From the NCBI GenBank assembly GCA_020630975.1, contig JAHDID010000035.1, positions 1 through 64,000 of the forward strand: a stretch of DNA of 64,000 nt, written 5' to 3'. The position numbers and the translations under genes are program-made. Positions 5,403 to 37,380 of this stretch are shown in pieces. The notes beneath the pieces are model-generated. The model was not told the DNA's origin. It did not search any database and saw only the letters and a program-made list of their open reading frames with translations. The first letter of the stretch is position 1. Each line of letters begins with the position of its first letter. This stretch comes from Verrucomicrobiota bacterium. Lineage in GTDB: Bacteria; Verrucomicrobiota; Verrucomicrobiia; Verrucomicrobiales; DEV007.

Positions 5403-5519
5403 GGCTGAATAGTACGTCTGAGTGCATCTAGAAGCCGAATCGGATTTGAAAGCGGCGACTTCTTTTGTAACATCGCGGTGATCAATAGGTGACGAGTGAG
5501 AGGAGATGGGAAAAAATCG

Positions 5520-13955: not shown

Positions 13956-14101
13956 ATCGCTATACAACACGTCTCAGCAACGGTTGCAAAGCGAAAACCG
14001 CGAAATCATTGCAGAAATAGGGTTGATTTTTTTTAAAAATCATCAACTATTCCTGCTCGCCGATTCAGCCCTGTTTCGGCCATCCTAAATAGATTGTTAT
14101 C

Positions 14102-17977: not shown

Positions 17978-19828
17978 CTACTTCCGTAGAGCAGCCTCCA
18001 TTAGCTCATAGTTGCGGGTGACTAGATCTTTTCTGTCGTCTAGGAGGCCTGCGGTGAGCATGGCTCCGTCGAATAGCTGGTCGGTCACGAGTTTGGCCAA
18101 TTCTGGGTTTTCGCCTTGTACGTCGTGGAGTTGTTTGATCAGCGCGTGGCGCGGATTGATCTCCAGTTCGACTTCTAGAGGTGGAGCCTCTTCATCTGGG
18201 TTCATCGCTTTCATCATCTGGCGCATCTGAGCGCTCATGCCATGCTCTGGAGTGAGCACTGCTACTGGGCTGTCGATTAGGCGCTTGCCGACGGCTACTT
18301 TCGTTACCTTGTTGTCTAGGTAGTCGGAGATGAAAGTTGTCAGGGTCTCTACGGCACTTTCCTCTAGTGCTTCGCCCTCTGCTTCTACCGAGTCATCTAG
18401 CTCTACATCGGATCGATCGATGGATACGAGATCGTTGTCTTTGTATTTTTTCAGGTTCTGGACCAAGTAATCATCGACCTGATCAAAGAAGTAAATCACT
18501 TCAAGACCACGGGCTTTGAAGGCCTCCAGGTAGGGGCCTGCCTCTGCCGTTTTGCGATCGGGGATGATGAGGTAGTAGATTTTGTCTTGGCCTTCTTTGG
18601 CGCGCACTAGATAATCCTCAAACCCACACACCTCTCCAGGCTCGGTCATAGAGGTCTCGAAGCGTAGCAGCTTTGCCAAGCTTTCCTGATGATCGTAGTC
18701 TGTGACCGTGCCTTCTTTTAGAAAGCGGGAAAAGTTTTCATACCATTTGGCGTACTTCTCAGGATCGTCTTTTGACTCGGAATCCAAGTTTTTGAGGAAG
18801 CGTTTGATCACGACCCGATTCAGCTTTTTCACCAACGCGCTATCCTGCATGGATTCGCGGCTGATGTTGAGCGGTAGATCGGCTGAGTCGATGACGCCTC
18901 GTAGAAAGCGAGCCCACTCGGGTAGCATGCCTTCGGGTTTGTCGTCGATCAGCACGTTTTTGCAGTAGAGAGAGACCCCTGCCTCCATCTGGCCAAAACC
19001 AAACTGCTCGGTATTTTGAGTCGGGGCGAAGAGCAATGAATTCAGCTCGATCGGCGAATCGGCTGAGAAATGCATGCGGTAGCTTGGCTCGTCGAATGCT
19101 TTAGAGGTGAATTTGTAGAATTCATTATACTCCTCGTCGGTCACCTCGCTCTTTTGCTTGCGCCAGATCGCTTCGACAGTGTTCACTCTCTCTCCGTTTA
19201 GCAGTAGAGGGAAAGCAACGAAGGCCGAATAAGTTTTGAGAATGGTCTCGATGCGATCTTTTTGCGCAAATTCTTCGTATTCTTCGCGGAGTTTGACCAC
19301 GATTTTGCAGCCGCGGCTCTGGCCGTCTTCCTCTTCGATCTCGTAGCCGGTTTTTCCGTCGGATGTCCACTTGAGGTGCTCTCCATCGGTCTTCCAGCTG
19401 TGGGTGTAGACAGTCACTTCATCGGCCACCATGAAGGCTGAGTAAAACCCGACGCCAAACTGACCGATCATAGCGGTCTCTTTCTTGGCGTCTTCTGCCA
19501 TGGCTTTGACGAATTGCTTGGAGCCAGAGTGAGCTATCGTGCCAATATTCTCGTGCAGTTCATCTCGGGTCATTCCCAGACCGTGGTCTGCGATGGTGAA
19601 TGTTTTGTTCTCCTCGTCGACATCGATGTGGATCTCGAGTTCCTTTTCGGCGTCGAAGACCTCTTTCTCGGTCAGTTGCAGATGGCGAAGTTTTTCGAGG
19701 GCATCTGAAGCATTGGAGACTAGCTCCCGCACGAAAATTTCTTTGTCGGTGTATAAGCTGTTGGTCACGATATCCAGCACTTGGCTGACGTCGGCTTGGA
19801 ACTCACGCTTCTCGTTGTTTTCAGACAT
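17978..19828 (-). CDS. htpG: molecular chaperone HtpG (Hsp90)
   Basis: 616 residues from the ATG at 19828; the frame is open further upstream, but the Hsp90 homology starts at MSENNEKREFQADVSQVL. N-terminal GHKL ATPase domain: LVSNASDALEKLR, DHGLGMTRDEL, GTIAHSGSK, GQFGVGFYSAFMVAD. The middle domain has the ISRESMQ block, and a C-terminal dimerisation domain follows. Cytosolic ATP-dependent chaperone. The normal bacterial length is about 620-630. It stands alone and is divergent from the FAH-family gene. Confidence 0.96.
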   Translation of the reverse strand: MSENNEKREFQADVSQVLDIVTNSLYTDKEIFVRELVSNASDALEKLRHLQLTEKEVFDAEKELEIHIDVDEENKTFTIADHGLGMTRDELHENIGTIAHSGSKQFVKAMAEDAKKETAMIGQFGVGFYSAFMVADEVTVYTHSWKTDGEHLKWTSDGKTGYEIEEEDGQSRGCKIVVKLREEYEEFAQKDRIETILKTYSAFVAFPLLLNGERVNTVEAIWRKQKSEVTDEEYNEFYKFTSKAFDEPSYRMHFSADSPIELNSLLFAPTQNTEQFGFGQMEAGVSLYCKNVLIDDKPEGMLPEWARFLRGVIDSADLPLNISRESMQDSALVKKLNRVVIKRFLKNLDSESKDDPEKYAKWYENFSRFLKEGTVTDYDHQESLAKLLRFETSMTEPGEVCGFEDYLVRAKEGQDKIYYLIIPDRKTAEAGPYLEAFKARGLEVIYFFDQVDDYLVQNLKKYKDNDLVSIDRSDVELDDSVEAEGEALEESAVETLTTFISDYLDNKVTKVAVGKRLIDSPVAVLTPEHGMSAQMRQMMKAMNPDEEAPPLEVELEINPRHALIKQLHDVQGENPELAKLVTDQLFDGAMLTAGLLDDRKDLVTRNYELMEAALRK

Positions 19829-19955
19829 GGGAATTCTAGTAGCCAAGTGGGAGCAGGATGCAAGTAGGAATCTCGGGTTCCTGTAAACTCTGTGCTTCCT
19901 TTGTAAATCCGGCTTGTCTCCTAAACTTGTTTGGTTAGGGTGCGTGCTAGTTACT

Positions 19956-20816
19956 ATGAAGCTTTTAAGACACGGAAATATTGGGGAAGAGAAGCCTGGA
20001 CTCGAGTTGGCGGATGGCAGTCGCGTAGATGTCTCGGGTTTCGGCATGGATTGGGACAGTGCTTTTTTCTCTGATCCGGAGAATCTCACGAGACTGGAGC
20101 AGTGGATCAGCGAAAAGTCTGGTGCTCTGCCTGTGCTCGATAGCTCGGTTCGATTGGGGCCGTGTGTGGCGACTCCAGGGAAGTTGATTTGTATTGGTCT
20201 GAACTACTCCGACCACGCAGAGGAGGCGGGCATGGATATCCCGGCAGAGCCGATTGTCTTTTTTAAGGCGACGAGTGCGATTTGTGGGCCATTCGATCCA
20301 GTGATGATCCCTAAGAATAGCGAGAAGACCGATTGGGAGGTCGAGCTAGCCTTTGTGATCGGCAAGCGAGCTAACTACGTGAGTGAAGAGGATGCCCTCG
20401 ACCATGTAGCAGGTTATCTGTTGCACAATGACTACAGCGAGAGAGCCTTTCAGCTGGAGCGTGGCGGACAGTGGGTAAAGGGTAAGAGCTGCGATACATT
20501 TGCTCCGCTAGGCCCCTATGTGGCGACTCCTGATGAGCTGGGTGACATCAATGATCTGGACATGTGGCTGACGGTGAATGGTGAGACCAAACAGAATGGT
20601 AGCTCTAGTAAGATGATTTTCGATATCCCTAAGCTAGTGAGCCATTTGAGCGAGTTCATGAGCTTGATGCCTGGTGATGTGATCTCCACAGGTACCCCTC
20701 CCGGAGTCGGCATGGGATTCCAGCCCCCACAGTATCTACAGCCTGGCGATGTCGTGGAGCTGGGTATAGCGGGCTTGGGTCAGTCGAGACAGGAGGTCAT
20801 AGCTGATGAGCGCTAA
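19956..20816 (+). CDS. fumarylacetoacetate hydrolase-family protein
   Basis: 286 residues from the ATG at 19956. The FAH C-terminal-type fold is clear: CIGLNYSDHAEE, PIVFFKATSAICGP, the metal/active-site run DWEVELAFVIGKRA, GYLLHNDYSER, KSCDTFAPLGPYV, GDVISTGTPPGVGMG. Family members act on 2-oxo acids or acylpyruvates (2-hydroxyhepta-2,4-diene-1,7-dioate isomerase, acylpyruvase, oxaloacetate decarboxylase). It overlaps the next gene by 11 bases, so the two are co-transcribed. Confidence 0.88.
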   Translation: MKLLRHGNIGEEKPGLELADGSRVDVSGFGMDWDSAFFSDPENLTRLEQWISEKSGALPVLDSSVRLGPCVATPGKLICIGLNYSDHAEEAGMDIPAEPIVFFKATSAICGPFDPVMIPKNSEKTDWEVELAFVIGKRANYVSEEDALDHVAGYLLHNDYSERAFQLERGGQWVKGKSCDTFAPLGPYVATPDELGDINDLDMWLTVNGETKQNGSSSKMIFDIPKLVSHLSEFMSLMPGDVISTGTPPGVGMGFQPPQYLQPGDVVELGIAGLGQSRQEVIADER

Positions 20817-23442: not shown

Positions 23443-23601
23443 GTTGTTTATAATGAGTGAATTAGAATTGGGGTTAACTTTAAAGCTGAGTTATGCTAAA
23501 TATCGATTAATCCATAATAACTTGGTTCATCCTTCCAGTTCTTATTAATTGAAATAATCAAAAATCATATTATTATCATAGGCCGGAATCGGTAGTAGGT
23601 G

Positions 23602-25470
23602 ATGAGAGTAAACGCATTTTTTGAGGCTGACACAGTATTTTCCAATCTTGAGTCTGATCAGGCTAAACCTACGGAGAGACCTCCCGGAGCATACGCGCTA
23701 ATAGCATCTGATGATTTCGATTTGATCGATGTGGCTAGGAATGCGCTGCAGCCCTGTCTAGATTTGGAGGTATTTGACGAAAGATTCGATTCATTGCCTG
23801 AGGAGACGGAAGGATTGGGCGTGGTTATTGTCGACGAGCGTTCTTACCAGCGAGGTGGCTTGCGATTACTGGAAGATTTTCGAGAGCATGTGCCCAATGT
23901 TCCGGTGCTGTTTGTCACTGGTTTTGGAGATTTAGAGACAGCTCGGCGAGCGATTGTAGCAGGGGCATCTGAATATTTGCCAAAGCCATTAGAGCCTCAG
24001 AACTTACAACAGATCGTGGCTAGCCTGATTCCCGGGATTCGGTTTGGTAGTGGAGGGCAAGGTTTAAGCACGAAATTTGCCCGGCCAGTCGTGAGAAAAG
24101 AGACGGAAGAGGAAAATTATCTCCGAGCACACATAAGAGGCCAGCAGGAGTTTCTCGCCCGGGTGATACGATATAGTTCTAAAGCTATCGTAGTTGAGGC
24201 AGGATTGGACTCAGCTGTAGGAGTCGGCACGATTCTGAAAGGGACAGAGGTGACGCTAGGATTTCGATCTGTGTCTATAGCAGATGCTGTGGTTGCTAAG
24301 GTGACCAATCTTGCTGATAGGCGATGGATCGAAGTCGGGCTGGGAGGTGACTGGGAGATCGGCAATAAACCGAGCAGCGATTCGTCTGGCTTGGATCAGG
24401 CTCAACCCTTCGTTTTGCCCACAGATATCCGTAGTTCTGTCATCGCGTTCGAAGATTTACTGGACGATTTGCATGATGATCTCGCTCCATTCGAAGACCT
24501 GATGCTGGAGATCGGTCCAGATGAGCGTCCGGATATGGAGGCAAAGATATTGAGCTATGCGGAGAGCCGGTTCTTCCCGAATTTGACCGAGGCATTGACC
24601 AAGTTTGAGCAAATTGCGGAATCAATCGATTCGATAGAAGGCCGACGTGCTTTGCGCCGGATTGCTCAGCAGCGCCTGTTTCCTATGATTCTGTGCTCAC
24701 CGTTTGTCTCTAGGATCGTGGCCCAGCCTATAGGGGTGCCGGGAGATTTTGGTATTTTGGGACAATTGCTGGGGGATCCTTACCGAGGGCACTCATTGTA
24801 TGGTCGTTTGTTGAATGCTTGGCTCATTTCATCCAAGCCATCTGAGGCATATCGGCAGCGTATTTCGATGCTGGAGGGCGAGATCGATCAGGTGGTTAAG
24901 TCGGCTAATTCCAAGGGCGAAAGCGCTAATATACTTAGCATGGCCAGCGGGGTTGGTTTTGAGGTGCAGCGTTTTGTTAACAAAGCAAGTCGCGACAGTC
25001 GCGCGAGCATTGATCTGGTCGATTTTAATCAGAGAACTCTCATCGAAGCTAAGCGCCAGTTCATCGAGTGCCAGAAGCAGAATCGAGAGTTGGATGTGGA
25101 TGTGAATCTTCGTCAGGATTCTGTTTTTAATCTAGCCAAGCACCTGAGGAGAGCTGCAGAGGGTGATCAGCGAGAGGAGTATGATCTGGTGTATTGCGTC
25201 GGGTTGTTTGACTATTTGTCGGAGAGAATGTGCTCTCAGGTGATTAGCTATCTGTATAAGCGTCTCAAGCCCGGTGGTAAGATAATCGTAAGTAATTATA
25301 CGCCAGAGAATGAGATGCGCCATTTTATGGGGGTAGTGCTGGATTGGGAGTTGTTGCACCGGACCCCAGATCAATTTTCTAATATGCTAGCTACGACATT
25401 GGCTAGCGGTAGATTTGAAATACGCAAAGACGAAACGCATACGGAACTATATGCCGTAGCAGAAAAATAA
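23602..25470 (+). CDS. receiver-SAM methyltransferase fusion, PhcB-like
   Basis: 622 residues from the ATG at 23602 (a GTG directly before it is in frame). Residues about 30-142 form a response-regulator receiver with acceptor-type Asp78 (VIVDERS), VTGFGD and LPKPLEP. The middle region (about 155-380) is unassigned, part beta-strand (PilZ-like?), part helical. Residues about 385-622 form a class I SAM methyltransferase: DPYRGHSLYGRLLNAWL, motif I ILSMASGVGFEVQRF, DLVDFNQRTL, and the diagnostic YDLVYCVGLFDYLSERM...LKPGGKIIVSNY. The GLFDYL block and its lead-in match the PhcB family, which makes 3-hydroxy fatty acid methyl ester signals in Ralstonia. The next gene, 21 bases on, is a PhcR-like receiver-kinase. 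The function is inferred from these motifs. Confidence 0.7.
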   Translation: MRVNAFFEADTVFSNLESDQAKPTERPPGAYALIASDDFDLIDVARNALQPCLDLEVFDERFDSLPEETEGLGVVIVDERSYQRGGLRLLEDFREHVPNVPVLFVTGFGDLETARRAIVAGASEYLPKPLEPQNLQQIVASLIPGIRFGSGGQGLSTKFARPVVRKETEEENYLRAHIRGQQEFLARVIRYSSKAIVVEAGLDSAVGVGTILKGTEVTLGFRSVSIADAVVAKVTNLADRRWIEVGLGGDWEIGNKPSSDSSGLDQAQPFVLPTDIRSSVIAFEDLLDDLHDDLAPFEDLMLEIGPDERPDMEAKILSYAESRFFPNLTEALTKFEQIAESIDSIEGRRALRRIAQQRLFPMILCSPFVSRIVAQPIGVPGDFGILGQLLGDPYRGHSLYGRLLNAWLISSKPSEAYRQRISMLEGEIDQVVKSANSKGESANILSMASGVGFEVQRFVNKASRDSRASIDLVDFNQRTLIEAKRQFIECQKQNRELDVDVNLRQDSVFNLAKHLRRAAEGDQREEYDLVYCVGLFDYLSERMCSQVISYLYKRLKPGGKIIVSNYTPENEMRHFMGVVLDWELLHRTPDQFSNMLATTLASGRFEIRKDETHTELYAVAEK

Positions 25471-25491
25471 CTCCCTCACTCCGCCGCCTAT

Positions 25492-26700
25492 ATGAACCTC
25501 GACAACAATATCGGCATCCTGTATGTCGATGACGAGTCAAAAGCCCTAAAATATTTTAAGGACAGCTTCGAAGACCTAGGACCTATCTTCACCGCAGAGA
25601 GTGGTGAAGAGGGATTGGTTGTCTTTAGAGAAAATCGAGCAAAGATCGGCATCGTGCTGAGTGATAAAATGATGCCCGGTATGTCGGGTTTGGAGTTTTT
25701 GGCGAAAATCAGGCGCATCGACGATCTACCTCTGCGCATGCTGGTGACAGCCAATAACGATCTGGTCGAGGCGGTGGAGGCTCTCAATGAGGGGCTTCTT
25801 TACTCCTATATGAATAAGCCCTGGTCTTCCGAGGATCTGGAGACCAAGCTAAAGCGGGCGATGGATCGATACTGGATAAGTCGAGAGAGAAAACGTCTGT
25901 TGAAAGATCGGGCTGCGACTTTTCAGGAAATGATGATGGCTGAGCGCGCATCTAGTTTTGAAGCACTTTCGTTGGGGCTCAACCATCACATGCGAAACTC
26001 TTTGACGGTGATTCAGTCGTTTTTCGATATGATCCCCCTTCAGCTCGAGCAAGAGGTGGGAGGAGCTCCACGGGATCGATTCTTTTGGGAGGATTACTAC
26101 AATAATGTGGAAGATCGGCTGTCGAGCCTGATATCGATCCTCACCAATTTGACGGAAGGCACCAATGCGGCTCGCGTGTCCAGTGATGACGCCGGTCTGG
26201 AGCCGATTCAATTGCGCGAGGTGATCGAGTCAGTGGTCGAAAAGCACGCTATCGAGGATGCGACTATCAGCTTCAAAGGCCAACCGGAGGTGACTATGGA
26301 GGGCGAGGGTGAGCGCATTGTTCATCTGATTGAGACGGTGGTGCTGGAGGCTAGCAAGAATATCAAGAATGGCGGTAGTATCACCTTAGAGGTGGAACCC
26401 TGTACCGTAGGTGTCGCTGAGGCGGAAGGCGTGGAGATACGATGCATCGACAATGGTGATTTATTGCCAGAGCCAGTGCGGCGCCATCTGTTTGACCCAT
26501 TCCATATCCGTTCGGATCGACCTTCAGAGTTGTCTACGGATTTGCTCAGTGCCTACATCACAGTGTACACCCATGGAGGGACGATTCGGGCGGACCGGAC
26601 TGAGGAGAATTGTAATCTGATCGAGATCACTCTTCCTTTAGAGGCTGGTAGTAAAGCTGGGCTAGGTGATGCTCAGCGGATCATAGGTGGTTTGAAATAA
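25492..26700 (+). CDS. receiver-histidine kinase hybrid, PhcR-like
   Basis: 402 residues. Residues 1-125 are a canonical receiver: GILYVDDESKA, Asp58 in VLSDKMMPGMSG, LVTANN, MNKPWSSEDL. A linker helix and an H-box follow (ALSLGLNHHMRNSLT, His165 or His166), then a GHKL domain with LEASKNIKNG as N-box and CIDNGDLLPEPVRRHLFDPF as G1/F. The GLGL G2 box is not recognisable (STDLLSAYITVYTHGG instead), so kinase activity may be reduced. An N-terminal receiver followed by a kinase is the PhcR/atypical-hybrid layout. Soluble, no membrane segment. Probably co-transcribed with the methyltransferase gene. Confidence 0.75.
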   Translation: MNLDNNIGILYVDDESKALKYFKDSFEDLGPIFTAESGEEGLVVFRENRAKIGIVLSDKMMPGMSGLEFLAKIRRIDDLPLRMLVTANNDLVEAVEALNEGLLYSYMNKPWSSEDLETKLKRAMDRYWISRERKRLLKDRAATFQEMMMAERASSFEALSLGLNHHMRNSLTVIQSFFDMIPLQLEQEVGGAPRDRFFWEDYYNNVEDRLSSLISILTNLTEGTNAARVSSDDAGLEPIQLREVIESVVEKHAIEDATISFKGQPEVTMEGEGERIVHLIETVVLEASKNIKNGGSITLEVEPCTVGVAEAEGVEIRCIDNGDLLPEPVRRHLFDPFHIRSDRPSELSTDLLSAYITVYTHGGTIRADRTEENCNLIEITLPLEAGSKAGLGDAQRIIGGLK

Positions 26701-26706
26701 GCCTAC

Positions 26707-27285
26707 TTACTGTTTCAGCGGGCCTTCTTCTAAGGCCAGAGAAACGATTTTCTCTGCTTGGGAAACGAGATTGGGTATTCTCTCTTTTGCCTCTTTGAGT
26801 TGGGCGAATTTCAGCTCCTGGCTGATCGACATGAACGATTTCACCTGCTCGAGAAGACCGATTGAAAAAACTGGGGCGCCGGCTTGCTGTTGAGGCATGG
26901 CGATACGAGATAGGTATTCCTCGGCGGTCTCGTAGCGGATAGGGTCTCCATATTGGGATGTGAGGAAATCCTTAACGATTTCAGAAGCCTCAAGGCCTGC
27001 TTTGTTCGGTGCCATAGTAGCGGCTTCAGATTGTAGCTCTTGTAGGCGTAGTCTGGCGACGACTTCTGGCGGAGGGCCGGTTGGCTTGGGGTTTTTCTTG
27101 CGATATGAGAGCACACAATAGATCACAACTGCGGTGATTAGCAGTAGGATCGAAAGAGTGATGAAAATGACAGGCGGCCAATAAAACGGTGGGGGATCGT
27201 CTACGATATCCCTGATCTCTGACGCACCTGTAGCGCCACCAGTCTGCCCCATAGCTGGGGAGACTAGAAACTGCAGGAAAAGCAT
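26707..27285 (-). CDS. membrane-anchored DUF4381-like protein
   Basis: 192 residues from the ATG at 27285, chosen because a perfect AGGAGG lies four bases upstream. An in-frame GTG at 27345, three bases after the stop of the giant vWA gene, would add 20 residues and give translational coupling. Short signal (MLFLQFLVSPAMGQ), then PPPFYWPPVIFITLSILLLI, a membrane helix at about 35-57, a cytoplasmic basic patch, and a helical domain (VVARLRLQELQ, IVKDFLTSQYGDPIRYETAEEYLSRI). The layout resembles DUF4381 proteins of Bat/vWA operons. Last gene of the four-gene envelope locus. Confidence 0.6.
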   Translation of the reverse strand: MLFLQFLVSPAMGQTGGATGASEIRDIVDDPPPFYWPPVIFITLSILLLITAVVIYCVLSYRKKNPKPTGPPPEVVARLRLQELQSEAATMAPNKAGLEASEIVKDFLTSQYGDPIRYETAEEYLSRIAMPQQQAGAPVFSIGLLEQVKSFMSISQELKFAQLKEAKERIPNLVSQAEKIVSLALEEGPLKQ

Positions 27286-27287
27286 AA

Positions 27288-27309
27288 TGCCTCCTGATAA
27301 AAGGAGGCA
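27288..27309 (-). promoter_or_regulatory. hairpin sequestering a Shine-Dalgarno sequence
   Basis: In minus-strand RNA, UGCCUCCU pairs perfectly with AGGAGGCA over a six-base loop (UUUAUC). The 3' arm contains the whole AGGAGG that lies four bases before the ATG at 27285. The ribosome site of the DUF4381-like gene is thus inside an 8-bp stem that upstream translation would open. Confidence 0.55.
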
Positions 27310-27348
27310 TCTGCAATTAGAGGTCTGAGTCAGAGTTCCACTCACGTC

Positions 27349-30300
27349 TTATTCGTCGATCGATATTTCTTTCTCGGCTAAATAATCTTTCAGGGCATTG
27401 TCTTTTAGGACTTTGCCTCCGGCGATGACGAGTGAGTACTCACCGCCGGTGCCCCGAGCTATGCGGCTAAGTGGGACAGATGCGCCAGGCACCATCAGAG
27501 CGATGGTGTTGATGCAGATATCCTCGGCCTTTTCCTTGCTCTTAGCGATCATTTCGACTGCTACTTGCTCTTGTCTGGCTGTCTCGCCATCTGTGAGGAA
27601 GTAGATTGTCTTAGGCGCAGGCTCGATGTCCATCGCCATGGTGAGTGGTAGATGCCATGTGGTGCCATACGATTTACCGACAGCTTCGATATCTTCGATG
27701 GTGGCAGCGATGTTCTCTTCGGTGACTTCTCTCCAAGAGCCGGTTGGCAGTTGTTCATTGCCTTCCTGATACTCGAATCCACCGAATCCACTCTTCCAAT
27801 GGTGAGTCGTTCCGTCGGTAGCATCTTCGATCACCACGTCTTCACCGCGAGCCCCGCCTTGGGTCATGCGCTGGTGGGCAAACCAAGTTGGTCCGGAGAA
27901 GAAGATCACCTGATAGAGCGATCCTTCAGCTAGACTGTTGATAGCGGAGATCAGCTCATCTTTGCTCAGGCGCAGTTGAGCCGGGGTCAAAGAGCGAGAT
28001 ACGTCCATGATGAATGCTACCCGTTGGTCGCTACCTTCTTGGTTCAGCTTCTCAGCTGTCCCGAAGATACCGCGAGTGGGCTGCTGCTCTTTGCGTGGCT
28101 CTGGTGCTGGTGCTGGAGGAGCGGGCTCTTCGATCACAGGAGGTTCCTCTGCGACTACCTGATTGTCATCGGTGGGCGCCACGGCGGCTACGCCCACGAC
28201 TGCTCCAGCCGCTGCTATGGCGCCGGTGGCGATTGAGTTAGTGGATGAATCATCATCTGTATCGGTGGCGCTCTCTGTGGAGTCCGTGGTGATCAGTGAC
28301 TGAGCTTGCTCGATCCACTCTTGGCTCTTGATCTGGCCTGGTAGGTTGAGGTCTCTTTCGAAGGCCCAGCGATTGTAGGTATTCCAGTTCGCCACCTGCT
28401 TGTAGCGATAGATACCACGTTGGTTCAAACCGCTTTCGATCTCATCGTCGATACCATTGATAGCGGTGAGATCGTCTCGATCTACCTGATCGTGGGTGTA
28501 GACGATTCCGTAGCTTTCGTGCAAGTCCGCGTCCTCTCCATCGAACTGGTTGAGAGGCACCAGATAGTCCATGGTGCTGGGCTTGATTGGCTCGGGCTCA
28601 TGGGCGGTCAGATCCGCCTCTGCAGCAGCAGGTGCTACCTCGTCGGTTGCGATTGTGTCCGTGGTTTCGACAGCAGCTTGTTCATTGATGGTGTAGTCCC
28701 AGCCGCGCTTTGTCTCAGCGTTCACATCGATAGGCTGAGTGTGGTCGCCCTCGATGGCTGGCGAGCCGCTTTGGTCTGTGGTTTCCACGGTAGCCACCTC
28801 TTCGGCGGTGTCTTCCTCATCGTCTTGGCCCGCGATCGCCGCGCCTGCGACTGCTGCGGTGGATGCTACCGCGCCTGCGGTGCCCCATTTTGCCCAGTCG
28901 ATGTCGCCCCAGCCGAACTTGGTCTTCACTTCTTCGCGCTGCTCTTCGGGTAGTTCTTCGAGCTGTTTGAAGCTGTAGATGCCTTGGCGATTCAGTTCTG
29001 CGGCGTCTTCTGCGGAGACGCCTTCTGCCTGTGTCAGATCATCAGCATCATCGGGTGCCTGTGCCTCGTGGGTGTAAGTCCAGGTCTGGTCAGTTTGTTC
29101 GTCTGCCTCAGTCCTTGAGGGTGATTCTTCACCTTCCCATTTGCCCCAGTCGACGTCTCCCCAATTGACGCGAGTTTCGACATTTTCCTCATCGGCGACA
29201 GGAGTGACTTGGCTTTCCTCTTCGTGCTCATCATCTCCGCCTAGGAGGGCCGAGCCACCTGCTACGGCGGCAGTGCCGAGTGCCCCTAGTGTGCCCCATT
29301 TACCCCAGTCGATGTCACCCCAGCCGAATCTGGAGCGGACTTCTTCGCGCTTCTCTTCTGGTAGTTCTTCGAGCTGTCTGAATGTGTAGACACCTTGGCG
29401 ATTGAGCTCTGCGGCATCATCTTCTGAGATGCCCTCCATCTGGGTTAGATCATCTGCATCCTCTGGGCGTTCGCGGAAGCGCCAACCCCATGTGGAGTCA
29501 GTTTCGGTATCGCCGCGACTAGCTAGCTCGGATTCCACCACCTCGACACTGGTATCGTCGATGGTTTCCACTTCCTCCTGCTCATCATCATGATCGTCGT
29601 CGTCCTCGCCGAGTAGGGCAGAGCCACCTACAGCGGCGGCGGTGCCGATGGCACTGAGAGTGCCCCACTTGCCCCAATCGATGTCGCCCCAGCCGAAGCG
29701 AGATTTCACTTCTTCGCGGCGCTCTTCAGGCAGCTCCTCAAGCTGTTGGAAGGTGTAGATGCCTTCCGCTCTGAGCCGCTCTGCATCTTCATCTGAAATA
29801 CCTTCAAGCGAAGTGAAATCGTCGGCTTGGACACCAGGATTGCCGGTGTAGGTGTAGCCCCATGTCCAGTCAGGTCTTACGGTGGTCTCGGTTTCGTCTT
29901 GAGTCACCACTTCGGGTAGCGTCACTGTAGTGGCAGCTTCTTCTGTTTGTTCCTCAGTAGTAGCTACGGTGACTTCCTCTTGCTCGACGTAGTTGGCATT
30001 CTCTTCCTCCTCATCTTCATCGCGATTCAGTAGAGCTGCACCACCTGCTACGGCAGCTGTGCCGAGTGCCCCTAGAGTGCCCCATTTGCCCCAATCGATA
30101 TCTCCCCAGCCGAATCGAGAGCGAACTTCTTCTCTTTTCTCTTCTGGTAGTTCTTCGAGCTGTTTGAAGGTGTAGACGCCTTGGCGGTTGAGCTCTGCTG
30201 CGTCGTCTTCTGAGATGCCCTCCATCTGGGTGAGATCATCTGCATCCTCTGGACGCTCGCGGAATCGCCAACCCCATGTCGTATCGGACTCGGTGTCTTC

Positions 30301-32466
30301 TCGGTCGGCTAAATCGCTGCCTTTTTGGAACTCGAAGTGCTGGGTATCGGTGTCTTCCACGGATTCCTCGTGCTCGACGACGACCGTTTCCTCTTCGATT
30401 TCCTCAGCTTCGTCATCATCGTCACCCAGCAGGGCGGCGCTGCTAGCTGCTGCGGCTGCAGTGAGTGCTCCTAGAGTGCCCCATTTGCCCCAACTGAAGT
30501 CAGGCCAGCGGAATTTGCGGCCAAAGCGCTCGCGCTGGTCTTCGTCCATCTCGTCGAGCTGAGAAAACTTGTAGATACCTGCGCGATTGAGCTCGGCTGC
30601 CCGCTCTTCGTCGACATCTTCGAGTTGAGTCAGGTCGTCTGCATCGTGCGGGACGACTGAGTAGTAGTTGGCCAGCTGGAGATCGACTTCTTCCTCTTCT
30701 TCAGCGACGGGTTCTTCAGTGGAGGTGTACTCTTCAGTGATGACCTCTTGCTCGGTGGTGGTCACCTCATATTCCTCCTCCTCATCATCACGGCGCAGAG
30801 CATTGGCGCCAGCGATAGCGGCGGTACCTACGGTTCCGGCTATTGCCCACTTGCCCCAGTCGAGATCTGGCCAGCGGAACTTGCGGCCAAAGCGAGAGCG
30901 TTGCTCTTCATCTAGCTCGTCGAGCTGGGAGAATTTGTAGATACCTGCCTGGTTTAGCTCGTAGGCGCGATGCTCATCGATGCCCTCGAGCTGGGTGAGA
31001 TCGTCGGCATCGTGAGGAACGACTGAGTAATAGGTGGTCAGCTCTAGGTCCTCATCTGGGCCGAGCTCTTCGATTTCTTCTTCGTCAGCAGCTGCGAATG
31101 TCACAGTCTGTTGTTCGACTTCTTCGATCTCCTCGACTGTTTCTTCTTCGGTGTGATCGGTGATGACGACATTCTCTTCGATCTCTTGGCTGTTGGAGGC
31201 TTCCTCTTCGTCTTCATCATCGACTAAGAGAGAGGCGACACCGGCTGCAGAAGCTGCGCCCACGGCACCGATAGTGCCCCATTTCCCCCAATCGATGTCT
31301 GGCCAATTGAAGCGATCGCCAAAGCTGCGGCGCTGCTCTTCGTCGAGCTCTTCCAGTTGAGAAAACTTGTACACACCAGCGCGATTCAGCTCAGCTGCTT
31401 TTTCATCGTCGATGCCTTCGAGTAGGGTGAGGTCGTCGGCATCTTCGGTCTGCTCTTCGTGGGTGGCTATGAGGGAGGGCGGTGCCTGTCGGGTTTCCTC
31501 TTCTAGGACAGGTTGCTCTTCGACGATTTCCTCCTCGTAGGTTTCCTCCTGAGTGACGACTTGCTCTTCTACGACTTCCTCATCGTCGTCTTTGCCGACA
31601 TTTAGCAATGTGGCCCCAGCGATAGCGGCTCCTGCAGTGGCGATCGTGGTGCCGATAGGGGACTGCTCCTCTTCCTCGGTCTCTTCTTCGACATCGTAGC
31701 TCTGTTCTACGACGTTGGTTTCCACAGTCTCGGAGATGGTCTCCGGATTAGGGATCTGTGGTGGTAGTGTGACTGTGCTGGTCTCGTCTTTAGCGAGATC
31801 GACATGGGCCTCGGTCTCGTCGATGTCGTCCCACTTCCAGTCTGGCCAGTCAAAATTATCACGCCCTCTGGAGAGTAGAGCTGCACCGCCGACTCCTGCA
31901 GCAGCTGCGGTAGCACCCCATGCGCCCCAGTTGATGTCTGGCCAGCCAAATTTGAAGCCAAACTTACGACGGCCCTCTTCATCGAGGTCGGCTAGCTGCG
32001 AGTAGCGGTAGATGCCTGCTCGGTTGAGTTCTGTTGCGCGCTCGTGATCGATGCCTTCGAGTAGAGTGAGATCGTCTGGATCGTCTGGGGCCTCTGCGTA
32101 GTAGGTTTTCAGGCCTAGGTCATTAGCCGCAGATCTTTCTACTGCCGGGGCTGAGGTGGCGACCTTTGAGGTCTCTGGCACGGCTTTTTCGGTGATCTTT
32201 TCGGTGCGTGTGGACGCGGCTGCTGGTGGCGTAATCGCAGCGGTTCTGTCGTCGAGTTTGATATCGCCTTTGCGTAGCTCCTTTTGCTCCTCCTCGAGCT
32301 CTTTGATGAGAGATGCTCGCTTGTAGAAGCAGATATACGCGACATGGATGCCTAGTAAGAGACCGATTACTGCTAAAATAGCAGCGTGGATAGGGTACTT
32401 CTGGATCAGCAGTAGCGGGTCAGCGAGGTTACGGATCAGGGCGAATAGACTTTCTGAAAGTTCCAT
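27349..32466 (-). CDS. giant membrane protein: nine HhH repeats plus C-terminal vWA domain
   Basis: 1705 residues. N-terminal membrane helix at about 27-47 (HAAILAVIGLLLGIHVAYICF), then a charged linker. From residue 131 there are nine copies of a helix-hairpin-helix unit of the COG3743 type: (D/P)DDLT.LEGI...AAELNRAGIY.FSQLEEL, each followed (except the ninth) by an FGW.DIDWGKWG element, an Ala/Gly-rich hydrophobic stretch of about 18 residues and a very acidic linker. Repeats 1-4 form one subfamily (KF.WPD), 5-8 another (RFGWGD); repeat 9 (about 1327-1395) lacks the tail and ends like a canonical COG3743 unit. Residues about 1483-1700 are a vWA domain with MIDAS DVSRS and FLTDGE. Probably an inner-membrane adhesion or assembly platform. 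Function unknown. Confidence 0.75.
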   Translation of the reverse strand: MELSESLFALIRNLADPLLLIQKYPIHAAILAVIGLLLGIHVAYICFYKRASLIKELEEEQKELRKGDIKLDDRTAAITPPAAASTRTEKITEKAVPETSKVATSAPAVERSAANDLGLKTYYAEAPDDPDDLTLLEGIDHERATELNRAGIYRYSQLADLDEEGRRKFGFKFGWPDINWGAWGATAAAAGVGGAALLSRGRDNFDWPDWKWDDIDETEAHVDLAKDETSTVTLPPQIPNPETISETVETNVVEQSYDVEEETEEEEQSPIGTTIATAGAAIAGATLLNVGKDDDEEVVEEQVVTQEETYEEEIVEEQPVLEEETRQAPPSLIATHEEQTEDADDLTLLEGIDDEKAAELNRAGVYKFSQLEELDEEQRRSFGDRFNWPDIDWGKWGTIGAVGAASAAGVASLLVDDEDEEEASNSQEIEENVVITDHTEEETVEEIEEVEQQTVTFAAADEEEIEELGPDEDLELTTYYSVVPHDADDLTQLEGIDEHRAYELNQAGIYKFSQLDELDEEQRSRFGRKFRWPDLDWGKWAIAGTVGTAAIAGANALRRDDEEEEYEVTTTEQEVITEEYTSTEEPVAEEEEEVDLQLANYYSVVPHDADDLTQLEDVDEERAAELNRAGIYKFSQLDEMDEDQRERFGRKFRWPDFSWGKWGTLGALTAAAAASSAALLGDDDDEAEEIEEETVVVEHEESVEDTDTQHFEFQKGSDLADREDTESDTTWGWRFRERPEDADDLTQMEGISEDDAAELNRQGVYTFKQLEELPEEKREEVRSRFGWGDIDWGKWGTLGALGTAAVAGGAALLNRDEDEEEENANYVEQEEVTVATTEEQTEEAATTVTLPEVVTQDETETTVRPDWTWGYTYTGNPGVQADDFTSLEGISDEDAERLRAEGIYTFQQLEELPEERREEVKSRFGWGDIDWGKWGTLSAIGTAAAVGGSALLGEDDDDHDDEQEEVETIDDTSVEVVESELASRGDTETDSTWGWRFRERPEDADDLTQMEGISEDDAAELNRQGVYTFRQLEELPEEKREEVRSRFGWGDIDWGKWGTLGALGTAAVAGGSALLGGDDEHEEESQVTPVADEENVETRVNWGDVDWGKWEGEESPSRTEADEQTDQTWTYTHEAQAPDDADDLTQAEGVSAEDAAELNRQGIYSFKQLEELPEEQREEVKTKFGWGDIDWAKWGTAGAVASTAAVAGAAIAGQDDEEDTAEEVATVETTDQSGSPAIEGDHTQPIDVNAETKRGWDYTINEQAAVETTDTIATDEVAPAAAEADLTAHEPEPIKPSTMDYLVPLNQFDGEDADLHESYGIVYTHDQVDRDDLTAINGIDDEIESGLNQRGIYRYKQVANWNTYNRWAFERDLNLPGQIKSQEWIEQAQSLITTDSTESATDTDDDSSTNSIATGAIAAAGAVVGVAAVAPTDDNQVVAEEPPVIEEPAPPAPAPEPRKEQQPTRGIFGTAEKLNQEGSDQRVAFIMDVSRSLTPAQLRLSKDELISAINSLAEGSLYQVIFFSGPTWFAHQRMTQGGARGEDVVIEDATDGTTHHWKSGFGGFEYQEGNEQLPTGSWREVTEENIAATIEDIEAVGKSYGTTWHLPLTMAMDIEPAPKTIYFLTDGETARQEQVAVEMIAKSKEKAEDICINTIALMVPGASVPLSRIARGTGGEYSLVIAGGKVLKDNALKDYLAEKEISIDE

Positions 32467-32532
32467 CGATGTGATTGGTTAGTTGAGGCTTTCGGTAGTG
32501 TCGGTTTGTGGTCGTGATTTCGGGTGCTCAGT

Positions 32533-32745
32533 TTAGACGGCTCTATTCTTTGCACGGATGCGGGCATTCTCTGCCTCTATTTCAGCGTAGCGGCGCTTGC
32601 AGTTGCGCCACATGAGCCAGCCGATGAAGTAGCCGATCAGGCCCATGATGGCCAGGATGGCAAAGGCTGCGATCCACTCGTGAGCATATCCATCATACAT
32701 GTTGCCCTTGTCGGAGTGGTCTAAAAAGCTAGAGAAGATGTCCAT
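32533..32745 (-). CDS. small single-span membrane protein
   Basis: 70 residues: a soluble start (MDIFSSFLDHSDKGNMYDGYAHEW), one membrane helix at about 25-46 (AAFAILAIMGLIGYFIGWLMW), and a basic/coiled-coil tail (RNCKRRYAEIEAENARIRAKN). Family not recognised. It sits between the BON/OmpA gene and the giant vWA gene on the same strand (54 and 66 bases of spacing), which supports it as a real member of that operon. Confidence 0.7.
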   Translation of the reverse strand: MDIFSSFLDHSDKGNMYDGYAHEWIAAFAILAIMGLIGYFIGWLMWRNCKRRYAEIEAENARIRAKNRAV

Positions 32746-32799
32746 GGTCTTGTTTTGCTAAAGTTTGTGTCGTGTTGCGTTATTTACTTCTCTGACAGG

Positions 32800-35700
32800 T
32801 TAGTCGGCCACGATCCTGACATCGGTTCTACGGAATTTGTCGTATTGGTTGGAGTCTCCAGTGATAGCGCCTCGACCGATGACTGATACGATGCGGTCTT
32901 CATCGATACCATTCTCTACGAGGTAGCTGCGGATTCGCTTAGCGCGCGCGTCACTCAGCGTATCATTAAGGGCTGCGGTACCGCGCTCGTCGGCAAACCC
33001 ATCGATCACGATTTTGCCAGTTGCGGCTTTTGCCTTGGCTAGCAGCATCTTGACGTTGGCTGCTTCCGAAGGCTGGATGTGAGATTCCCCAGTGCCGAAG
33101 TAGATCGAGTAGAGGTCGCCCTCATTCGGTTTGATCGGCTCGGGCGCGACTGGTGGAGCTGGTGGCGGCACTGGCGCAGGCTCTGCAGGCTTCACGATGC
33201 GTAGCTGGTCAATCACCTTCACGCCCTTAGAGCTGAATGGTGTGGTGAGTGCCAGGGTGTCGGCCTTAGCTTGCTCAGATGGGACCACACCTTTTAGGGT
33301 GATCTCCTGCTTCTGGAGCGAGAATTCGCGCTCTGCGACGCTGCCTTTGTAGAATTCGCCGACGAATGTGGGTAGCGCTTCTAGGTAGGCGTCGGATTTC
33401 ACGCTACTGTTGATCTTGAGTTTGTCCTCTAGCTTGTCGATGCCCTTGATAGCTAGGATCGACCCTACGATGGCATCGTGAGTGGCTTTGTCGGGTACAT
33501 TGCCTGTGAGAGCGAGTTTATCAGCCTTTCCAGAAAGAGCCACAGCGGGAGGCAGTGTGGGATCTGGCTTAGGTATCTTCAGATCGAAGTCGAGTTTGCC
33601 TGGTGGGTTGATACCAGAAAAGGCCACACTGACGTTTTGCATGGTATCTATATCTTTCACGAGTCCTGAGATGGAGGATGCGCGCTCATTGATACTGACT
33701 TTGGTCTTCTTGATCAGACCTAGATTGTCGGCAGTGAATTTGGGCAATGCCTTTAGCCAAGCTGCATCGGTGACTTCATCGCTCACCTCGATACGGTCTA
33801 CGACTTCCACATCATTGCGCAGGCGTCGTTTCGCGGCGTCGACTAGAGAGATTTTGATGGCCTCTGTTGGGACTTTACCGGTCAGAACGGTCTTGGTCGG
33901 TGATTGCTCTGTCCAGCTGAATGATGGCTTCGCTTTTGGTGCAGGCTTCACCTCGATCTGATCGACGATACTGTAGCCCTGCCATCCGCCAAAGTTTTTG
34001 AGGATCGACTGTTTGGTCGCATTGTCTTTTACCAGACCTGCTACGGTTATCTTTTTGCCCTTCACGATCACTTGCCCGTCATCTGTGGCTGCGAGTAGAG
34101 CTGGCACACCGAGAGAAACTGGCTCTGGGGAGGGGAGCTCTTTGTGTTTGGCACTCACTTCCACTTGGTTGTCGAGCTTTAGTCCTTGGACTTTGCCGAT
34201 GGCGTCGGTCAGGAGTTTGACGGCCTCTGGAGAGGCTAGCTTGCCGGCGGCAGATAGCGCGTTGGCTTTCTTGGTGAGGGTGAAGGTAGGTGCCTGATCG
34301 CGCTCGATCGTCATTGGCTTAGGCGCTGGGAGTAGGCCGATTTGATCGACGATGGCGACGTTTGGCCACTGATCCGCAGGGTAACGACCTAGAATGCCAT
34401 CTTTGGTCGCCTGATCTTTCACCATGCCTTTGAGGACTAGCTTGTCTGAGCCGACTTCTAGACGGCCGGTATCGGTCGCTCCGAATAGGTCTGACACACC
34501 TGAGAGTGCGGCTGCTACTTTAGCCGGCTTTTTCACGCGTGGACCCACTTTGAGTTGGTTGACGACATCTAGACCATCCACTGCAGCGAGCTTCGCGATC
34601 TGATTTTTGGTAGCTGGAGTATCGACTAGACCGGTGAGGATCAGCTGCTTCTGCGCATTCTTCGAGAGTGAAAACTTTGGCTCGATGGTGCGAGGTGGAG
34701 GCAGCACCTTCACTTGGTCGACGATCTCGGTGCCAGGCCATTTATCGGCGGCGAAAAATCCCATCAACTTGGTTTTGGCGGGCTGGTCTTTTACCTCTCC
34801 ATTTACCACGACTCGCTTGGGCGAGATGTCGAGTTGGCCGTTTTGCGAGGCGCTCATTAGCGCTGGGATAGCGGCCACAGCAGGTGCGAGGTGAGTCGGT
34901 GCGAGGTGCGTCTCGCTGACTTCGATGTTATTGACCACGGTCAGACCAGGCGCTTCAGCCGACTTGGCGATCTGGTTTTTCGTAGCTGGAGTATCGACGA
35001 TACCGGACAGAGTCAGGGTGTCGCCTTTTCTCAAGAGAGACAGGGAGGATGGCTGGTCACGCTTGGGCTTCTCTGGCTCCGGGTCGGGCTCGGGATCTGG
35101 CACCGGATCTGGAGTAGGCGCGACTGGCTTGGGTTTGACTGTGAGCTGGTCGACGATCTTTGCCCCCTGCCAGACATCTGGGGTGAATAGACTGAGCAGT
35201 CTTTTCTTTGTCCCTGAGTCGTCTACCAGACCTGATATGGTGACCTGTTTGGCAGTAGCTACCAGTCGGGCATCTGATGCGGCATTCATCAAAGCAGGGA
35301 TAGAGTCGACTGCAGCACCGACGACACTGAGCGCGCGGGTGTCTTCGGAGATCTTCAGCTGATTGTCGACCGTCACGCCAGACACTTTCTCAGCATTGGC
35401 GTTGAGGATGTCTTTGGTTTGCTCTGAGTTGACGATGCCATCTAGGAGGAGCTTGTCTCCGCTGCGCTGGATGGTGAGATTCCACGGATCCTTGGGACCA
35501 TCGGGGAGTAGAGGTCTACCACTGGGATCGGTGACAGCGAAGTGAATGCGGCCATTGTCTCCGGAAAGCTCATCGATGCGGTCGCGGATCTCTCCGACTT
35601 GATCAGCAGATGCGACACCAGTGACCACAGCTGTGAAGTGGTCGTATTTTACAGAAATTCCGGGATATTCCTGTTGGATCTGTTCGGCGACTCTCTGATT

Positions 35701-35802
35701 GAGCGCGGTCTCCACCCCTTCTTGGTGGCAGGATCTACCGATGAATGCAGCGATGATCGCTGCTAAGAACGCTAGTAGCAGTGTGGAAATACAACCTTTC
35801 AT
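32800..35802 (-). CDS. BON-like repeat protein with C-terminal OmpA domain
   Basis: 1000 residues from the ATG at 35802 (opening MKGCISTLLLAFLAAIIAAFIG, a signal or membrane anchor). Six units of about 125 residues follow, each with two BON-like halves marked by L.L.G.V.....TK..I and by VVNQ/IVDQ strands; successive units are joined by Pro-rich linkers such as PTPDPVPDPEPDPEPEKP. Residues about 895-1000 are an OmpA peptidoglycan-binding domain (YFGTGESHIQP, DGFADERGTAALN, LSDARAKRIRSYL, RIVSVIGRGA). BON domains are associated with membrane or pore binding, and the OmpA domain would anchor the protein to the cell wall. First gene of the minus-strand locus ending at 26707. Confidence 0.78.
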   Translation of the reverse strand: MKGCISTLLLAFLAAIIAAFIGRSCHQEGVETALNQRVAEQIQQEYPGISVKYDHFTAVVTGVASADQVGEIRDRIDELSGDNGRIHFAVTDPSGRPLLPDGPKDPWNLTIQRSGDKLLLDGIVNSEQTKDILNANAEKVSGVTVDNQLKISEDTRALSVVGAAVDSIPALMNAASDARLVATAKQVTISGLVDDSGTKKRLLSLFTPDVWQGAKIVDQLTVKPKPVAPTPDPVPDPEPDPEPEKPKRDQPSSLSLLRKGDTLTLSGIVDTPATKNQIAKSAEAPGLTVVNNIEVSETHLAPTHLAPAVAAIPALMSASQNGQLDISPKRVVVNGEVKDQPAKTKLMGFFAADKWPGTEIVDQVKVLPPPRTIEPKFSLSKNAQKQLILTGLVDTPATKNQIAKLAAVDGLDVVNQLKVGPRVKKPAKVAAALSGVSDLFGATDTGRLEVGSDKLVLKGMVKDQATKDGILGRYPADQWPNVAIVDQIGLLPAPKPMTIERDQAPTFTLTKKANALSAAGKLASPEAVKLLTDAIGKVQGLKLDNQVEVSAKHKELPSPEPVSLGVPALLAATDDGQVIVKGKKITVAGLVKDNATKQSILKNFGGWQGYSIVDQIEVKPAPKAKPSFSWTEQSPTKTVLTGKVPTEAIKISLVDAAKRRLRNDVEVVDRIEVSDEVTDAAWLKALPKFTADNLGLIKKTKVSINERASSISGLVKDIDTMQNVSVAFSGINPPGKLDFDLKIPKPDPTLPPAVALSGKADKLALTGNVPDKATHDAIVGSILAIKGIDKLEDKLKINSSVKSDAYLEALPTFVGEFYKGSVAEREFSLQKQEITLKGVVPSEQAKADTLALTTPFSSKGVKVIDQLRIVKPAEPAPVPPPAPPVAPEPIKPNEGDLYSIYFGTGESHIQPSEAANVKMLLAKAKAATGKIVIDGFADERGTAALNDTLSDARAKRIRSYLVENGIDEDRIVSVIGRGAITGDSNQYDKFRRTDVRIVAD

Positions 35803-35943: not shown

Positions 35944-37380
35944 TTATTTCGAGTTGTTCTTGTTTCCAGAGACGCGGGATTTCACTTTGAAGTGAAATGG
36001 CAAGCCCTCCATCGGGTGCTCTTTGCGGATCTGATTTTCTAGGAATCGCTCGTAGGTGCGGGTGAGTAGCTCTGTGTAATTCACGAATAGCATGTACTCT
36101 GGCACTGGGATCGGTCCAGGATCGTCCTCTCTGCGCTGGGTGGCGTAGAATAGCTTCAAGCGCTTGCCCTTGCGGACAGGAGGAGGATTTCGCTCGATGG
36201 CGAAGGAGAGCAGACGGTTGAGCTGGCCTGTAGGCACTGGTGCCGCTGCGGCGTGGATGACATCCTCGATAGCGGTGAAGATTTTGCCCAGATACTGGCG
36301 CTCTTTGGCTGAGATGGCGACTTTGGGCGCGTAGGGGAGGAAGAATAGGTCATCGCCCAGCTCCTCGCGGAATTGTTCGATCCGATCTTTGAAATCGGCG
36401 CCGGGGTGGTAGAGATCGAATTTATTGAGCAGCACGATGCAGGGCTTCTGCGCCTCGAGCACGAGCTTGGCGATGCGGCGGTCCTGGCTGACGACTCCAG
36501 AGGAGGCATCGATGACCAGTAGGCAGAGATCTGCTCGGCGGATCGAGCGCTCGGAGCGCATCACGGAGAATTGCTCCACCGAGGTGTCGCGGCGGCCTCG
36601 TTTGCGGATACCGGCGGTATCGATCAGGGTGAAGCGGCGGCCGCTACGCTCGTAGGGCACATCGACGGCGTCGCGAGTGGTGCCGGCTACATCCGATACG
36701 ATGGAACGCTCGTCCTCTAGGATACCATTGATCAGCGAGCTTTTGCCGACATTGGGGCGACCTACGATCGCGATCTTGATCTCTTTTTTGCGCTTTTTCT
36801 TTTCGCCAGAGCTGCGCTGCGCACCCTGATTTTTCAATCCTGAGGTGATGCTTTCGAGGAGCTGAGGAAAGTTGCGGCCATGCTCGGCTGAGGTATTGAC
36901 CTGGTTGGGGAAACCTAGGGTGGAAAACTCGGCCGCTGCAGGCTCGGTCTTGTCGGTATCGACTTTGTTGGCTACCAGGATCACAGGGGTGGACGAGCGG
37001 CGCAGTACGTTGGCCAGCTCAGTATCGATCGGGTGGATCCCAGTGCGGGCATCGACGGCGAATAAGATGAGGTCTGCCGCCTCGATGGCGATATCGGCCT
37101 CCATGCGCACCTGGCTGGCAAAGCCGTCATCAAGCGTCGCTCCGATACCACCGGTGTCGGTGAGCTCCACCGGGATACCATCGAGCTCGATCTGGCTGGC
37201 GATGCGGTCGCGGGTCACTCCTGGCTTGTCGTGTACGATGGCGATCCGGCGCTGGGCCAGGCGGTTGAATATCGCAGACTTCCCCACATTTGGACGACCG
37301 ACGATGGCGACTCGCCAGATGTCGCGCTCCGATGCGATCTGTTGCTCCTCTTGCTGCTGCTCACTGCTGCTATCTGCCAT
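35944..37380 (-). CDS. der: ribosome biogenesis GTPase Der (EngA)
   Basis: 478 residues with the two tandem GTPase domains of Der: first GRPNVGKSAIFN, DTGGIG and NKVD (about 22-190); second GRPNVGKSSLING, DTAGIRKRGR and NKFD (about 205-380). A C-terminal KH-like domain follows (FVNYTELLTRTYERFLENQIR). It is required for 50S subunit assembly. An extra Ser/Gln/Glu-rich 20-residue start precedes domain 1. Repeat array C lies 55 bases upstream of its start. Confidence 0.96.
   Translation of the reverse strand: MADSSSEQQQEEQQIASERDIWRVAIVGRPNVGKSAIFNRLAQRRIAIVHDKPGVTRDRIASQIELDGIPVELTDTGGIGATLDDGFASQVRMEADIAIEAADLILFAVDARTGIHPIDTELANVLRRSSTPVILVANKVDTDKTEPAAAEFSTLGFPNQVNTSAEHGRNFPQLLESITSGLKNQGAQRSSGEKKKRKKEIKIAIVGRPNVGKSSLINGILEDERSIVSDVAGTTRDAVDVPYERSGRRFTLIDTAGIRKRGRRDTSVEQFSVMRSERSIRRADLCLLVIDASSGVVSQDRRIAKLVLEAQKPCIVLLNKFDLYHPGADFKDRIEQFREELGDDLFFLPYAPKVAISAKERQYLGKIFTAIEDVIHAAAAPVPTGQLNRLLSFAIERNPPPVRKGKRLKLFYATQRREDDPGPIPVPEYMLFVNYTELLTRTYERFLENQIRKEHPMEGLPFHFKVKSRVSGNKNNSK

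Follow-up and report, generated by a model that had tools for sequence, protein, structure and literature searches.

The locus studied here lies in the genome of an uncultured Verrucomicrobiota bacterium (GCA_020630975.1), which was compared with samples of genomes from its genus, family and class. The window is the stretch of 64,000 nucleotides that was analysed, i.e. positions 1 to 64,000 of the forward strand of contig JAHDID010000035.1. On its minus strand, der (35944-37380) is followed by four genes coding for a BON/OmpA protein (gene 1), a small membrane protein (gene 2), a protein with HhH units and a vWA domain (gene 3), and a DUF4381-like protein (gene 4). All four genes of the initial annotation were found at their positions (Table 1). 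The gaps of 54, 66 and 3 bp between genes 1-2, 2-3 and 3-4 fit a single unit, as had been supposed. The four genes and the upstream der are syntenic in the relative genome G025, where the copy of gene 1 is broken at an assembly gap. Scans of the locus for promoters and terminators yielded results at chance level, and no relatives on plasmids were found. Elsewhere in the window, the plus strand contains a response regulator-methyltransferase fusion followed by a response regulator/HATPase protein (23599-26700); a HATPase protein also precedes a lone TM-vWA gene in locus L086. A 1565-residue protein (5496-10193, plus strand) looks, by eye only, like two fused glycosidase-type domains.

Table 1. 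Positions of the genes and features of the locus in the window.
Feature	Position	Strand	Support
Gene 1, ArfA-like BON/OmpA protein of 1000 aa with an N-terminal anchor, 1+12 BON-like halves and, at the C-terminus, an OmpA domain	32800..35802	-	
BON array of gene 1: one single half and six ArfA-type pairs (each six strands, three helices)	33196..35658	-	AF2 secondary structure; leave-one-out HMM
OmpA domain of gene 1; mDAP-binding Asp (GFADERG) and Arg retained	32809..33114	-	
Gene 2, 70 aa with a single span, which a basic helix follows; motif G-x3-GWxxW[RK]; N-out by prediction	32533..32745	-	
Gene 3, 1705 aa with a span at the N-terminus, nine HhH-like units and a vWA domain at the C-terminus; pI 4.06	27349..32466	-	
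Span of gene 3, whose protein is also matched by the small-TM profile	32326..32382	-	
Nine HhH-like units of gene 3; WG[KA]W and a Gly/Ala-rich stretch come after most of units 1-8	28315..32085	-	
vWA domain of gene 3; full MIDAS (DxSxS...T...D), beta-rich insertion after strand 2	27352..28074	-	
Gene 4, DUF4381-like, with a signal peptide and a single span; ATG 27285 is the probable start	26707..27345	-	
Hairpin GATGCCTCC...GGAGGCATT; the AGGAGG for the gene 4 start at 27285 is in its 3' arm	27286..27311	-	z-score -2.2

Gene 1 starts with the ATG at 35802, and its product matches the Pfam families BON_like (4e-27), BON (6e-21) and OmpA (2.6e-14). In a leave-one-out HMM analysis, 11 of 13 trial BON segments outscored all 200 shuffles. 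The AF2 model, which was computed from a 14-row alignment, comprises 13 beta-beta-alpha-beta units, namely a single one and six helix-joined pairs, followed by the OmpA domain. The twelve BON-like halves of the initial annotation are essentially right. As the model has a mean pLDDT of 76.5 and a pTM of 0.33, its units are reliable and their mutual arrangement is not. Each BON pair is modelled with about six strands and three helices, as described for the central domain of Rv0899 (PMC6151718). Rv0899 is also the best PDB match by sequence (2L26; E 3e-13), spanning the last BON pair and the OmpA domain, and the top fold match in Foldseek (E 5e-9). The ArfA equivalog model NF051434 of NCBIfam gave 198 bits for the whole protein over nine stretches; however, no single unit exceeded 48.9 bits at a cut-off of 81 bits, and we therefore refer to gene 1 as ArfA-like and not as ArfA. 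Gene 1 is an enlarged relative of ArfA/OmpATb (Rv0899), a kinship that the first inspection had missed. The locus had been presented as an undescribed envelope-spanning assembly. The literature searched contains no description of the set, but 'undescribed' has to be qualified, as gene 1 belongs to the already known BON-BON-OmpA (ArfA/OmpATb) type. Its OmpA domain contains both GFADERG and DARAKRI, with the Asp and Arg of peptidoglycan and DAP binding, which agrees with the earlier proposal that the protein binds the cell wall, and such binding is predicted.

The small membrane gene, likewise noted initially, has relatives in other copies of the module described below. A comparison of the small proteins with NCBIfam gave no match to any ArfB/ArfC-type model. 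For gene 3, a membrane protein with nine HhH units and a vWA domain had been proposed, and HMM scores, the MIDAS and a fold match of the AF2 model bear out the HhH units and the vWA domain. All nine HhH units scored 37-113 bits in a leave-one-out analysis, compared to at most 13.5 bits for shuffles. The GxG hairpin is missing in each of the nine, the corresponding positions reading GI[DS], GVS or DVD, and the net charge of the whole protein is -278. Because of this acidity (pI 4.06) and the missing hairpins, DNA binding by the array is unlikely, and a role as a spacer or in protein binding fits better. The vWA domain is too divergent for detection by Pfam, a close relative matches VWA weakly, and a PDB sequence search with the vWA profile returned nothing useful. 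The five MIDAS residues (D, S, S, T, D) are invariant in seven relatives. The AF2 model of the domain has pLDDT values mostly between 80 and 94 and matches vWA folds in a structure search; its beta-rich insertion after strand 2 is conserved in relatives. The locus is real and well-formed, and represents a variant ArfA/OmpATb-type module whose vWA/HhH partner is unusual.

It could be argued that such a variant still works as an ArfABC-like stress or transport operon, which would serve solute or ammonia export and acid adaptation, as proposed for Rv0899-0901, and whose expansions would tune its length to a thick periplasm. The first protein is of the same type, and annotations link ArfA and ArfC to acid tolerance (PMC3816664; PMC4885829). 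However, no pore domain is visible, the porin function of OmpATb itself is disputed (PMC3816664), and nothing in arfABC is known to correspond to the vWA and HhH parts. We regard this explanation as decidedly improbable.

Relatives of gene 1 were detected by profile in 31 of the 34 genomes of the genus, a count that includes the window genome, and the family has them in ten further genera. In the rest of the sampled class, the profile found only Pal-like OmpA matches, and no copy of the module turned up beyond one family; these statements on class and family rest on genome samples, in which the compared genomes are mostly fragmented drafts. Matches to NF051434 in other families of the class had no recognisable small or third genes after them in the loci read. 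Among the 44 gene-1 loci read, the small gene follows directly in 33 and a TM-bearing third gene comes behind it in 32. As loci L062-L076 had been found through the small gene, the first of these fractions is inflated, and the fairer estimate comes from the 24 loci picked by gene 1 alone, 13 of which have the small gene. Genes 1-3 are a module of the genomes of this family, and it is reshuffled. The third gene combines a conserved span with a spacer, which is a coiled coil or 1-24 HhH units, and with an end that is a vWA domain, an OmpA-like domain or nothing. Observed forms are coiled coil plus OmpA-like, one HhH unit plus OmpA-like, HhH units only, and vWA with 0, 2, 9 or 12 HhH units. The vWA form occurs in five genomes, and in six of the seven loci of the close vWA clade, a BON gene and a small gene precede the vWA gene; a contig scan with two short peptide patterns had missed vWA copies that were later found by profile. 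The vWA modules of G017, G019 and G031 lack an adjacent DUF4381 gene. The BON/OmpA, small TM and vWA genes recur together in other genomes, but DUF4381 is added only in the window and in G025. With this restriction, and with the module confined to one family in the class-wide sample, a four-gene set spread across PVC genomes, for which a search had been suggested, is not supported.

The window genome itself contains four modules, i.e. the one in the window, one on contig C40 and two in tandem on C53 (L122:5829-13591), whose third proteins are of the coiled-coil and coiled-coil/HhH type. Its contig C24 codes for an orphan HhH protein of 1185 residues with ten units, a near-exact internal duplication and no BON or small neighbour (L077:7831-11388). 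The longest array in the forms listed above, 24 HhH units, belongs to a spanning protein of 2805 residues in G057, which is encoded behind BON/OmpA and small TM genes (L158:9234-17651). In the genus, the coiled-coil/OmpA third gene is often followed by a gene for an extra small single-span protein of about 90-120 residues (L063:5539-5862 and equivalents), with a polynucleotide-phosphorylase-like gene upstream.

Gene 4 scored 24.0 bits against DUF4381 (PF14316), just under the gathering cut-off of 27.2. It may start at ATG 27285 (192 residues), which lies behind a perfect AGGAGG, rather than at GTG 27345. The hairpin that could mask this AGGAGG is a possible translational switch for gene 4; it is absent in G025. 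In 25 of 29 other loci, DUF4381 is encoded directly behind DUF58; the four exceptions had no DUF58 match in the short stretch that was read, which in two cases stops at a contig end. Neither the window genome nor G025 has a DUF4381 gene behind the corresponding DUF58 gene, and only in these two genomes is DUF4381 found behind the vWA gene. In the phylogenetic tree, their two DUF4381 copies are joined with a support of 100/99 and sit on a long branch. The pair groups with the DUF58-linked DUF4381 sequences of the genus, the joining fork being not firm (94/93) and drawn open. A single relocation of DUF4381 from the DUF58 locus to the vWA gene is the simplest reading. Gene 4 appears to have left its usual place behind DUF58 and to be a helper borrowed from a chaperone-type system. 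Alternatively, DUF4381 could have landed behind the vWA gene by chance and without a functional link, in which case only the three-gene module would matter. The linkage is indeed seen in two related genomes only and probably represents one event. However, the frame is open in both, with a spacing of 3 bp or an overlap, and both lack DUF4381 at its DUF58 site, which makes mere neighbourhood improbable.

A MoxR ATPase encoded 13 kb away had been noted initially, MoxR being the usual partner of vWA proteins. The gene (12951-13970) is genuine according to Pfam, but no MoxR gene was found on the syntenic contig of G025; its nearness is therefore not conserved and is ruled out as evidence for a partnership. 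In the window, this MoxR gene and a gene for HtpG (17978-20089) lie within 8 kb of each other, and neither was found on the G025 contig; in Leptospira, MoxR and HtpG are both encoded in the bat cluster (PMC3557215). The DUF58 genes of the window genome are on other contigs, and neither MoxR nor DUF58 is adjacent to the locus. G025 possesses a canonical Bat operon (moxR-DUF58-DUF4381-batA), in which DUF58 and DUF4381 are the companions of MoxR. The BatA N-terminal domain (PF07584) is present in this true Bat locus and, according to Pfam, absent from the 1705-residue protein.

In order to place the proteins relative to the membrane, the positive-inside rule was applied. The count of Lys and Arg is higher after the span than before it in 22 of 22 small proteins and in 26 of 30 third proteins, the remaining four of which break the pattern. 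Because this excess follows the span, the bulk of genes 2 and 3 is predicted to be cytoplasmic. The OmpA domains point in the same direction. The Asp that holds diaminopimelate in OmpA structures such as 3TD4 is kept in 16 of 17 gene-1 OmpA domains and lost in 13 of 13 OmpA-like domains of third genes; this loss agrees with a cytoplasmic location. For DUF4381, too, the bulk is predicted to be cytoplasmic. The HhH/vWA part of gene 3 is accordingly more likely to be cytoplasmic than periplasmic, as far as topology can be read from charge. The opposite orientation would make the locus a purely structural periplasmic assembly, in which gene 3 is N-in, its HhH/vWA part is periplasmic, and the complex passively spaces or tethers, in an adhesin-like way, the inner membrane, the wall and the outer membrane. 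An extracellular location is frequent for vWA domains, and third genes of relatives end in OmpA-like domains. Moreover, the more distant vWA relatives of other genera carry TonB-like anchors of the N-in type, with a basic N-terminus before the span, and look periplasmic. The charge pattern, the lost Asp and the recruitment to the locus of DUF4381, with its bulk predicted in the cytoplasm, argue against this arrangement, and we consider it rather unlikely, albeit the most serious alternative.

The domains, the MIDAS, the relation to ArfA, the recurrence of the module and the usual DUF58 site of DUF4381 were all computed directly. We tentatively propose, at a little short of an even chance, that a periplasmic BON array, held by peptidoglycan, is coupled via a bundle of helices to a vWA adaptor that is probably cytoplasmic and perhaps serves a MoxR/DUF58 ATPase. 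An anchor would fix gene 1 to the inner membrane, leaving its BON array and OmpA domain on the periplasmic side. There, the OmpA domain would grip the peptidoglycan, and this hold on the wall is well supported by homology; the six BON pairs would make up an extended arm, which may be in contact with lipids or partners. The products of genes 2 and 3, with their single and related spans, would have their N-termini outside and their bulk inside the cell, as suggested by charge. Conserved gene order and motifs suggest that these spans probably pack with the anchor of gene 1 to form a transmembrane bundle. On the cytoplasmic side, the acidic HhH array may be the spacer or protein-binding scaffold that presents the MIDAS vWA domain, and DUF4381, taken from the DUF58 locus, would probably dock a DUF58/MoxR-type ATPase on it. 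The remodelling of a membrane or envelope client could thereby be coupled to, or positioned by, the cell wall; ATPase recruitment and client are suggested by the DUF4381 link and by the roles of vWA domains elsewhere (PMC9976466). A more far-reaching version is a trans-envelope mechanochemical coupler, in which a cytoplasmic MoxR/DUF58 ATPase, via the MIDAS vWA adaptor and the transmembrane bundle, would act on, or be controlled by, the peptidoglycan-fixed ArfA-type BON arm, while interchangeable spacer and end domains set the client. This we deem unlikely and offer as speculation.

The function of ArfA/OmpATb-type operons, porin or not, is disputed. By multiplying and reshuffling the module, this family has generated natural variants, which separate a conserved core (BON array, small span and spanning third protein) from exchangeable parts; one of the variants joins the ArfA-type module to the MoxR/vWA world. 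It can thus be tested directly what the small membrane partner does and on which side of the membrane the third protein lies.

Among known systems, ArfA/OmpATb (Rv0899) of Mycobacterium tuberculosis has an N-terminal anchor, a BON pair of six strands and three helices, and a C-terminal OmpA domain in the same order as gene 1, and the arfA-arfB-arfC operon of this organism also holds genes for small membrane proteins. In contrast, gene 1 has six BON pairs instead of one, and the locus adds an HhH/vWA third gene and DUF4381. The BON+BON+OmpA class (cluster 7 in Table 1 of the census in the DolP paper, PMC7806268), mainly alpha-/beta-proteobacterial and actinobacterial according to that table, has the domain order of gene 1, whereas gene 1 has far more BON units. 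The HhH units of gene 3 are related by profile to those fused to RpsB, RplU, NuoE and PhaH (NCBIfam PRK12311 and others) but are arranged in tandem, are acidic and lack the GxG hairpin throughout. With the MoxR/vWA couples (NorQ/NorD, RavA/ViaA) and the Bat operons, the locus has in common the MIDAS vWA adaptor and the DUF4381-DUF58 link. A 'finger' is predicted in the vWA partners of MoxR proteins, which serve as adaptors (PMC9976466); such a finger would insert into the ATPase pore. In the vWA domain of gene 3, a beta-rich insertion is modelled after strand 2. Unlike those systems, the locus contains no adjacent MoxR or DUF58 gene and no BatA N-terminal domain, and its vWA domain is fused to an HhH array behind an ArfA-like gene.
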